From: Tepidimicrobium xylanilyticum
Lineage (GTDB): Bacteria > Bacillota > Clostridia > Tissierellales > Tepidimicrobiaceae
NCBI RefSeq assembly: GCF_900106765.1
Contig: NZ_FNNG01000013.1
Coordinates: 1-64,000, forward strand
Direction: 5' to 3'
Length of the DNA: 64,000 nucleotides
The notes beneath the pieces are model-generated. The model did not search any database, was not told where the DNA came from, and worked only from the letters and a program-made list of their open reading frames with translations. A program made the translations under genes and the position numbers. Of the stretch, positions 29,299-36,718 are shown piece by piece. Each line of letters opens with the position of its first letter. Positions within the stretch are counted from its first letter, which is position 1.

Positions 29299-30168
29299 AT
29301 GGAAATAAATGAAGAACTAATAAATATAAAGAATGTAATAGAAGAGGAATTATATAAATTGTTAAGTGATAAAGCTGGTTATCAAGAATTAATATTTGAA
29401 TCCATTAATTATAGCTTGTTAGATGGCGGAAAGAGGATAAGACCAATCCTTTTGTTAAAGAGTAGTGAATTGTTTAAAGGAAATTATGACAATTCACTAC
29501 CTTTTGCATTAGCAGTAGAGATGATACATACCTATTCATTAATCCATGACGACTTACCTTCTATGGATAATGATGATTTCCGAAGAGGTAAGCCTACTAC
29601 TCATAAAGTTTATGGAGAAGCTATAGCCATATTATCTGGAGATGGATTATTAAATTTAGCTTTCGAAACTATGTTGGATTATTCTCTGAGAAATTCAAAG
29701 ACTTTAGACGATTATCAAAGGAATATGTGGGCAGCTTATGAGATAGCCAGATATTCAGGTATATTTGGAATGATTGGAGGCCAGGTAGTCGATTTATTAT
29801 CCAATGAAATTAATATGGATATAAATAAGCTTATCTATATGTATGAATCTAAAACTTCTGCACTCATTCAAGCCTCAGTAGTGGCTGGAACTATTTTAGG
29901 GGGCGGAGATAAAGAAGATATACAGAGAATGAGAAAATTTGGATTATATTTGGGCTTAGCTTATCAAATAAGAGATGATATTTTGGATGAGGAGAAGGAT
30001 AAATTAGTTAACAAGGTGACCTTTCTAAGTTTTCATGATAAAAGTAAAGCTATATCTGTAATAGATGAGTTAAGTCAAAAAGCATTTGATATATTAAGCT
30101 ATTATGAAGATAGAGATGTAAATTTTTTGAAAGAGTTGGTTAAATTGCTTACTTATAGAAATTATTAA
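29299..30168 (+). CDS. ispA: Polyprenyl (farnesyl) diphosphate synthase
   Basis: A 289-residue prenyltransferase of the IspA type, condensing isopentenyl diphosphate with allylic primers. The first Asp-rich motif DDLPSMDND has the short-chain form, followed by RRGKPTTHK. GQVVDLL and the second motif YQIRDDILD are present; the Lys-rich region after it reads EEKDKLVNKVTF. Product length is probably C15. It is the last coding gene before the OLE RNA, as in known OLE loci. Confidence 0.93.
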   Translation: MEINEELINIKNVIEEELYKLLSDKAGYQELIFESINYSLLDGGKRIRPILLLKSSELFKGNYDNSLPFALAVEMIHTYSLIHDDLPSMDNDDFRRGKPTTHKVYGEAIAILSGDGLLNLAFETMLDYSLRNSKTLDDYQRNMWAAYEIARYSGIFGMIGGQVVDLLSNEINMDINKLIYMYESKTSALIQASVVAGTILGGGDKEDIQRMRKFGLYLGLAYQIRDDILDEEKDKLVNKVTFLSFHDKSKAISVIDELSQKAFDILSYYEDRDVNFLKELVKLLTYRNY

Positions 30169-30173
30169 AAGTG

Positions 30174-30202
30174 TTGATAATTTACTAGTATTATGCTATA
30201 AT
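30174..30202 (+). promoter_or_regulatory. Near-consensus promoter of the OLE RNA
   Basis: TTGATA (30174-30179) and TATAAT (30197-30202) are spaced by 17 bases, with TG at 30194-30195 as extended -10. Transcription would start near 30209, just before the closing stem of the RNA. It indicates abundant transcription independent of the ispA operon. Confidence 0.88.
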
Positions 30203-30208
30203 TATTTA

Positions 30209-30812
30209 GTTAAACAAGTGGCACAGTATTCTAGTCAATACAGCTAATCTCGAGGGCGGGGCTAAAAATCCGTCGAAGGGCATATCGATGAAGTTCCTTG
30301 TTTCGGCTCGCGACGCCCAGTCGAGGGTCGTTGCAGGGAGTAAGAAAGATGGGGCGATCTGCAATGGCATGCAGGCGTTGACCCTACTTTCGTGGAGACT
30401 TACCATTGTGGTAAGATAAACCTGTATGTTATGTTGAAAAATAAACATACAGAGTAGCCTGCCTTGAGTGATATTGGCGGATGATAAGTTCAACTCTTTC
30501 TACTTAGGGCCCAAGTAGGAAAAGTTTTGTTATCGAAACCAATATTGCAAAAGAGGCTAAGGATTAGGCTGGTTGTTGAGGAAAACTCCTAGACTGTTCT
30601 TAACAGAGGCATATTGAGGATTACAGTGCGGACTAAGTGGCAATCCAGTTCTACTTATGGCGACGTGGTAGTAAAAGAATTAAAGGGAAACCGCTGTTAT
30701 GGCAACATACAGTTTCTTTTAGGGAAATCCTGCTGGACCTTAAGCCGCAAGATTTACTCAGTATGCTGCCACTTGTAGCGAAGCTGATAGCATAATGCTA
30801 TCAGCTTTTAAA
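30209..30812 (+). ncRNA. ole: OLE RNA (ornate large extremophilic RNA)
   Basis: About 600 bases with no credible ORF but with GC-rich conserved-looking blocks, e.g. GAGGGCGGGGCTAAAAATCC near 30251, GGCTCGCGACGCCC near 30305 and GATGGGGCGATCTGCAATGG near 30348. The ends pair: GTGGCACAGTAT (30219-30230) with a GTATGCTGCCAC run ending at 30773. Length, the block order, the position between ispA and a small membrane protein gene, and tlyA-recN-spoIVB-spo0A downstream all match OLE RNA loci. OLE forms a membrane-bound ribonucleoprotein with OapA and other proteins and affects tolerance to cold, alcohol and magnesium stress. The identification is from memory of the class; a covariance-model search would settle it. 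Confidence 0.93.
30781..30812 (+). terminator. 3' hairpin of the OLE transcript
   Basis: AAGCTGATAGCAT (30781-30793) pairs with ATGCTATCAGCTT (30795-30807), followed by TTTTAAAA. The stem is very strong but the T-run is short, so some transcripts may continue into oapA. Confidence 0.8.
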
Positions 30813-30843
30813 ATACCAGCATATATGGAGGAATTTAAGTAGC

Positions 30844-31440
30844 ATGAGTAAAAAAAACGATGTAGGCATGTATGAGAAATATAATTTAAGATGGGTTATA
30901 CTAATTACAATTTGGACTTTTATAATGGCTATAGTTATAAGCGTAATTACAGAGGGATTGGTAAAAAACATAGAAATAGCGTTAGCTTTCATTATATTAT
31001 TAATTATTATATTTATGGGTATATTTTTCGATATTATAGGTATTGCTGTAACTTCTGCTGAAGAAAAGTCCTTTCATGCTATGGCTGCAAACAAAATAGA
31101 AGTAGCTAAATATGCCATTAGATTGATCAGGAATGCAGGGCAAGTGTCAAATTTTTGTAATGATGTTATTGGAGATATAAGTGGTATAATAAGTGGAGCT
31201 ATTAGCACAACTATAATATATAAGTTAATAGCAATTTATGATATAAAGGATGGTATGCTGCTAAGCATAACTTTAACTTCTTTAGTAGCTGCTTTTACAG
31301 TAGGAGGAAAAGCCTTTGGTAAATCAATTGCGATAATGAATTCAGAAAAAATAATTTTGATGACTGCCAAAATAGTCAATATTATAGATGATAAATTGGG
31401 AATAGATTTATTTTCCGATAAGAAGAATAGAAGCAATTAA
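30844..31440 (+). CDS. oapA: OLE-associated membrane protein OapA
   Basis: A 198-residue membrane protein directly downstream of the OLE RNA. Hydrophobic segments lie near residues 15-38, 45-70, 110-130 and 140-160. Between the second and third is SAEEKSFHAMAANKI, and IRNAGQVSNFCNDVIGDISG follows. OapA binds OLE RNA and takes it to the membrane; it has been compared with CNNM-type magnesium transport proteins. ATGGAGG precedes the ATG. In Bacillus-type loci dxs follows; here tlyA follows at once. Confidence 0.9.
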   Translation: MSKKNDVGMYEKYNLRWVILITIWTFIMAIVISVITEGLVKNIEIALAFIILLIIIFMGIFFDIIGIAVTSAEEKSFHAMAANKIEVAKYAIRLIRNAGQVSNFCNDVIGDISGIISGAISTTIIYKLIAIYDIKDGMLLSITLTSLVAAFTVGGKAFGKSIAIMNSEKIILMTAKIVNIIDDKLGIDLFSDKKNRSN

Positions 31441-31468: not shown

Positions 31469-32287
31469 ATGACGAAAAAGAGAGCCGATATATTAATTTT
31501 TGAAAAGGGTTTTGCAAATTCGAGAGAAAAAGCAAAAAGGATTATTATGGAAGGCGTTGTTTATATTGGAGACAAAAGGATAGATAAGCCTGGAGAACTA
31601 GTAAATGTAAATGATGAAATCAAAATTAAGAATAACCCGATTAATTATGTAAGTAGAGGAGGGTTGAAGTTAGAAAAAGCAATAGATGTTTTCGATATAG
31701 ATCTAAAAGAGAAAATAGCAATAGATATAGGAGCCTCTACTGGGGGATTTACTGATTGTATGTTAAAAAATGGGGCAAAGAAAGTATATGCTATAGATGT
31801 AGGATATGGCCAGCTAGATTGGACTTTAAGGATGGATCCAAGAGTTATAGTTATGGAAAGAACAAATATTAGGTATGTTACAAATAAAGATATTGGTGAG
31901 TTGGTAGATTTTATTACTATAGATGTATCCTTTATTTCTCTAAAATTGGTTCTTTCTGTAGCTAAGAAACTATTAAATGAAGGTGGTAATATTGTTGCAT
32001 TAATAAAACCTCAGTTTGAAGCTGGCAGGGAAAAAGTTGGGAAAAAAGGTTTGGTTAAAGAAAAGAAGGTTCATAAGGAAGTTTTAGAAAATATAATTGA
32101 ATACTGTGATAATATAGGGCTAAAGGTAATTGGTTTAGATTTTTCACCTATAACTGGCAATACAGGGAATATCGAGTTTTTAGCTAATATAACTAAGTCT
32201 GAAAAAATTAAACCTATAGATAAATCAGTGATTCTAACCATTATATCTCAAGCTCATGACAAACTATATGACAAAATTTTAAAATAG
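31469..32287 (+). CDS. tlyA: TlyA family rRNA ribose methyltransferase
   Basis: A 272-residue protein with an N-terminal S4 RNA-binding domain (residues 1-60, KRADILIFEKGFANSREKAK) and an FtsJ-like methyltransferase domain (YVSRGGLKLEKAI, AIDIGASTGGFTDCML for AdoMet binding, FISLKLVL, LIKPQFEAG). TlyA methylates 2'-OH groups of rRNA in mycobacteria; the Firmicute role is less clear. TAGGAGG precedes the ATG. It sits in its usual place upstream of recN. Confidence 0.92.
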   Translation: MTKKRADILIFEKGFANSREKAKRIIMEGVVYIGDKRIDKPGELVNVNDEIKIKNNPINYVSRGGLKLEKAIDVFDIDLKEKIAIDIGASTGGFTDCMLKNGAKKVYAIDVGYGQLDWTLRMDPRVIVMERTNIRYVTNKDIGELVDFITIDVSFISLKLVLSVAKKLLNEGGNIVALIKPQFEAGREKVGKKGLVKEKKVHKEVLENIIEYCDNIGLKVIGLDFSPITGNTGNIEFLANITKSEKIKPIDKSVILTIISQAHDKLYDKILK

Positions 32288-32346
32288 ATTATGAATTAAA
32301 TTGCAAATGTTTAAGATTAGGTTTACCTTAAATTGGAGGTATAGCA

Positions 32347-36690: not shown

Positions 36691-36718
36691 TTGATACATT
36701 GATATATTGTGTTATAAT
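36691..36718 (+). promoter_or_regulatory. Sigma-A promoter for the steA operon
   Basis: TTGATA (36691-36696) and TATAAT (36713-36718) with a 16-base spacer lie about 72 bases before the steA start. No other promoter this good is seen before spoIIM. Confidence 0.75.

Follow-up and report, generated by a model that had tools for sequence, protein, structure and literature searches.

A complete OLE RNA and oapA locus in Tepidimicrobium xylanilyticum, closed by a hairpin of conserved sequence

Introduction

To our knowledge, OLE RNA is among the largest structured bacterial RNAs, and we know of no biochemical function established for it. A locus in the Tissierellales bacterium Tepidimicrobium xylanilyticum raises the question of whether the RNA encoded there is a full-length member of this family, how it and its protein partner OapA are expressed, and with which pathway the pair is linked. 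The window analysed comprises the first 64,000 nucleotides of contig NZ_FNNG01000013.1 (assembly GCF_900106765.1). An initial annotation, made from these letters alone, had proposed a complete OLE RNA with its own near-consensus promoter and a 3' hairpin, linked with OapA and not with isoprenoid synthesis.

Results

A full-length OLE RNA

The RNA and its main structural elements are as follows.

30202-30788, plus strand: OLE RNA (RF01071), 518.2 bits over the full model; predicted transcript about 30209-30809
30215-30223, plus strand: closing stem, 5' strand (P1-like), paired with 30767-30775, with paired changes in relatives
30264-30268, plus strand: A-rich P4 loop, CUAAAAAUCC, same as the Rfam consensus
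30507-30512, plus strand: self-complementary P9 loop, GGGCCC
30767-30775, plus strand: closing stem, 3' strand

An Rfam scan of the whole window returned OLE as the sole match (E 4.3e-149, gathering threshold 50), spanning model positions 1-616 without truncation, and this covariance-model check bears out the proposal that the RNA is complete. The score was obtained with Rfam's model, while the published cut-off of 390 bits for the full-length class, as distinct from variants 1 and 2, belongs to its authors' own model (PMC11332333). OLE is present once in the genome (a 3.0-Mb assembly of 38 contigs). Folding of 30209-30815 gave a minimum energy of -219 kcal/mol, with z = -7.1 relative to shuffled sequences. 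The closing stem had been placed between 30219 and 30773, and both positions lie inside a 9-bp helix in which CAAGUGGCA pairs with UGCCACUUG; relatives show compensatory changes in it, for example GUGGCA/UGCCAC and AUGAUA/UAUCAU. By sequence, both known dimer contacts are present, namely the A-rich P4 loop (PMC12286853) and the palindromic P9 loop, which forms a kissing-loop contact (PMC12265935, PMC12286853). The anti-Shine-Dalgarno-like motif CCUCC is absent from P6 (30340-30395); CCTCC occurs at this site in 14 of 79 loci. In Halalkalibacterium halodurans, the motif is reportedly tied to binding of bS21.

One relative (G017) appeared to carry a split OLE, its 5' part after ispA (L040:7014-7447) and its 3' part before oapA (L041:5114-5359), a separation of about 340 kb on the assumption that the single contig is a circle. 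We rejected this candidate as an assembly break, because each piece terminates in a run of N and the two share an overlap of exactly 61 nt, and because contig C77 of another genome (G019, L042) ends at the same base.

OapA and its partners

The partner gene named in the initial annotation lies directly downstream.

30844-31440, plus strand: oapA, OLE-associated protein A, 198 aa with a CNNM-like fold and a DxxxD motif (NFCNDVIGD)

The protein is 46-71% identical to OapA of relatives, and the DxxxD motif is invariant in the alignment. Its Pfam CNNM score of 26.4 bits falls just below the cut-off of 28.4, as expected from the published relation between OapA and CNNM proteins (PMC11332333). An AlphaFold2 model (mean pLDDT 83) was compared with known structures using Foldseek, and the only convincing neighbours, at probabilities of 0.90-1.00 and E-values above 0.001, were MtCorB (probability 1.00) and other CNNM membrane domains. 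The nearest named OapA proteins, from [Clostridium] ultunense, Clostridium sp. Cult2, Tissierella sp. P1, Tepidimicrobium and Schnuerera, also form a supported group with the window's protein in the OapA tree, and no OapA relative was found on viral contigs.

OLE-bearing genomes typically, but not universally, encode OapB and OapC as well. A search for both elsewhere in the genome, suggested in the initial annotation, was successful: an OapB homologue (49.8 bits to PDB 7k9b, 'OLE-associated protein B') is encoded in the ribosomal operon, where adk and infA flank it, and an L7Ae-like protein between rpoC and rpsL is the OapC candidate. Alongside OLE and OapA, the genome has a single CNNM-CBS protein (MpfA-like, 449 aa; G000:C10:42696-44045, corresponding to L047:6697-8046, minus strand), in keeping with the report that OLE-bearing species have 'no more than one' (PMC11332333).

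Linkage to ispA persists without dxs

The gene order in the window is xseA-xseB-ispA-OLE-oapA-tlyA-recN, with the following immediate neighbours.

29299-30168, plus strand: ispA, the farnesyl diphosphate synthase gene, immediately before OLE (NCBIfam FPPsyn at 273 bits; also Pfam polyprenyl_synt)
31469-32287, plus strand: tlyA family rRNA methyltransferase (TIGR00478, 282 bits), following oapA at the place held by dxs in other families

The absence of dxs after oapA extends beyond the locus, as no match above cut-off was obtained anywhere in the assembly. A possible dxs split over two adjacent half-length ORFs on contig C3 (311 and 277 aa) was dismissed; these read as the halves of a transketolase and score far below the dxs cut-off. 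Likewise, dxr was not found in the genome, which does carry mevalonate kinase, phosphomevalonate kinase and diphosphomevalonate decarboxylase (mevalonate genes and best dxs-like hits at G000:C7:4581-7441 and C3:131808-133548). Among 120 relatives, OLE and dxs lie within 5 kb of each other in 21 genomes and further apart in 6, OLE occurs without a dxs above cut-off in 35, and dxs occurs without OLE in 22. OLE does not need dxs, and its position beside ispA is kept. The claim that the RNA is linked with OapA and not with isoprenoid synthesis must be given up, because ispA still lies directly upstream of OLE here, as in 30/30 relative loci. Persistence of this linkage without dxs shows that the MEP pathway as such is not what OLE is tied to.

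Further downstream, the gap between tlyA and recN measures only about 60 bases (32288-32346), so that argR is not at that place; the corresponding gap in G017 is 489 bases. The argR gene is said to be frequent in the tlyA-recN cluster, and its product is reportedly an OLE pull-down partner in H. halodurans.

A conserved promoter before OLE

30174-30202, plus strand: extended -10 promoter TTGATA-N17-TATAAT, with TG at 30194-30195 and a predicted start near 30209

The promoter reads exactly as first described, with TTGATA at 30174-30179, a 17-nt spacer and TG.TATAAT ending at 30202. Within its 6.5-kb region it ranks first among promoter-like sites, at 11/12 plus TG; the motif by itself is within chance, with 2 found in 64 kb against 0.48 expected. 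What makes the promoter credible is its conservation across relatives, not the motif match alone. In 47 of 54 relatives, and in 55 of 73 named genomes, Bacilli included, the 55 nt leading up to the conserved AGTATTCTAGTC contain TGnTATAAT, which was present in 0/258 and 1/500 control stretches further upstream; its positions in the relatives cluster at -31 to -29 from AGTATTCTAGTC. This conservation supports a dedicated promoter, and a predicted promoter is conserved before OLE across Bacillota; high, separate expression of the RNA is plausible. For ole of H. halodurans, an own promoter is already known (PMC9723947). Two members of family f3 (L065 and L074) have an OLE without the conserved promoter and without the 3' hairpin. 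Elsewhere in the window, at 36691-36718, a further TTGATA-N16-TATAAT with TG before the -10 lies between spo0A and the next gene.

A 3' hairpin with a conserved sequence

30782-30809, plus strand: terminator-like 3' hairpin, AGCUGAUAGCA-UAA-UGCUAUCAGCU and following U, with a conserved stem sequence

The anticipated 3' hairpin is formed by AGCUGAUAGCA and UGCUAUCAGCU at 30782-30806. It consists of an 11-bp stem and a short U run (4 U), and was found by a relaxed scan, being unlisted by a standard consensus terminator scan. The conserved form, GCUGAUAG...CUAUCAGC, was collected in 65 distinct copies with variable loops (3 to 16 nt). In these 65 hairpins, which were picked with a pattern permitting limited variation only and come from related carriers, identity is 86-100% at the eight arm positions per side but only about 35-65% per position in the six bases that precede the stem and in those past the T-rich tail. 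In a 63-hairpin set picked in the same way, 4 of the 8 pairs are invariant and the remainder differ by G-U wobbles and a single A-U replacement. The DNA after the stem is T-rich, with T at 89, 98 and 96% in the first three positions. A hairpin finder blind to sequence recovered the same motif in all 53 loci with a hairpin, out of 57 relative loci; the OLE 3' end of L005 and of L067 bears an unrelated hairpin, and some family f3 members have none. Carriers are found in Tissierellales, Natronincolaceae, Tindallia and a few other groups; among the loci examined, those of Bacilli, Thermosediminibacter and Clostridium senegalense showed no such hairpin.

We searched the exact stem, GCTGATAGC-N(0-16)-GCTATCAGC, in 120 order-level relatives. 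It occurs in 36 of them, at one site each and always at the OLE 3' end, and in none of the OLE-less genomes among the 120. A relaxed stem, searched in 398 genomes across the phylum, returned the site in the window itself, another at OLE in G023, and two further genomes with four sites between them. Given this confinement and rarity, we rejected the idea that the hairpin is a terminator or repeat that is common in the genome. The whole viral-contig collection contains 18 stem matches, and none of the six that were scanned has an OLE. Within OLE, the hairpin arms have no recurring second pairing partner. The Rfam model does not include the hairpin, nor is it described in the running text of the OLE papers searched; stem P15 of domain 2, named in one OLE review, might be this element. 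The conservation of the hairpin sequence goes beyond the need of a simple transcription stop.

In two Anaeromonas loci (L057 and L138), a second copy of GCTGATAG lies just past the OLE hairpin, behind an AT-rich inverted repeat, so that the hairpin 3' arm could pair with either copy. The two-copy arrangement is a possible switch.

Between the hairpin and the oapA start (median gap 42 nt), a promoter-like site of at least 10/12 was found in 0/28 loci. With no promoter in between, oapA would depend on read-through, and its expression probably requires transcription past the hairpin.

Discussion

The locus is a complete, standard OLE/OapA locus of a known RNA family in a Tissierellales bacterium. 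As an overall account, we consider it very likely that a full-length OLE and OapA locus is combined here with hairpin-limited read-through. RNA polymerase would start near 30209 and for the most part terminate at the hairpin, near 30809, so that the RNA would measure about 600 bases. OapA would be made from transcripts that pass the hairpin, initiated at the OLE promoter or in the upstream operon, and the ispA operon may feed both OLE and oapA. On this arrangement of elements, we infer that the hairpin holds oapA expression below that of OLE, which would keep the RNA in excess over OapA. By homology with H. halodurans, OLE RNA would form a dimer that is anchored in the membrane by OapA and bound by OapB and OapC, and would help the cell to cope with cold, alcohol, Mg2+ and poor carbon sources (published OLE functions: PMC11332333, PMC9723947, PMC12265935).

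The fixed stem sequence suggests recognition of the hairpin by something beyond base pairing, for instance a protein or a second RNA, and we hypothesise that its sequence is read by some factor. In its specific form, the proposal is that in Tissierellales and Alkaliphilus-like bacteria a protein or RNA reads the hairpin in a sequence-specific manner, and that the hairpin either joins the OLE ribonucleoprotein or tunes oapA read-through; we put this forward tentatively, with a little less than even confidence. Against it stands the reading that the hairpin is an ordinary intrinsic terminator with a sequence kept only through common descent, which we regard as possible but rather doubtful. Its location at the RNA end ahead of T-rich DNA is what a terminator would have, and most carriers do belong to related clades. 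However, descent would have had to preserve the arms while loops and flanks drifted, with half of the pairs never varying and nearly all other changes being wobbles, and the tmRNA terminators of the same order, taken as a control, show 14 different 7-mers among 16. If sequence-specific recognition is correct, tuned read-through would regulate the RNA:OapA ratio. The constrained sequence of the hairpin, in a part of the RNA that Rfam's model leaves out, points to a possible further contact and offers a simple handle on how cells set that ratio.

The palindrome could instead act at the DNA level, as the operator of a transcription factor that controls oapA. A perfect inverted repeat before oapA, with a single site per genome, is compatible with this, but a half-site distance that ranges from 3 to 16 nt would rotate the half-sites round the helix, and the palindrome always sits at the RNA 3' end ahead of T-rich DNA; we judge an operator quite unlikely. 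Still less probable, in our view, is that the OLE RNA is a mere processed piece of an ispA-OLE-oapA operon and the promoter match incidental. While ole of H. halodurans is part of a large operon and presumably undergoes processing (PMC9723947), and a TTGATA-TATAAT match is not rare in an AT-rich window, the near-fixed distance of TGnTATAAT from OLE and its near absence from the control stretches speak for a promoter, as does the one at H. halodurans ole (PMC9723947).

Compared with known OLE systems, the present one differs in that dxs is absent from the genome, P6 is without CCUCC, and a sequence-conserved, terminator-like hairpin closes OLE, whereas the Bacilli loci examined have no such hairpin. 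With OLE of H. halodurans and Clostridium acetobutylicum, it shares the full-length structure, the conserved core, the P4 and P9 dimer loops, the adjacent oapA, the ispA/xseAB/tlyA/recN neighbourhood, and OapB and OapC in the genome. Beyond OLE systems, the modelled OapA structure can be aligned to the CNNM membrane domain of the Mg2+ transporters MpfA and MtCorB (7m1t, probability 1.00; 7cfg, TM 0.51/0.62); unlike these proteins, OapA is without CBS and CorC domains and carries the DxxxD motif.
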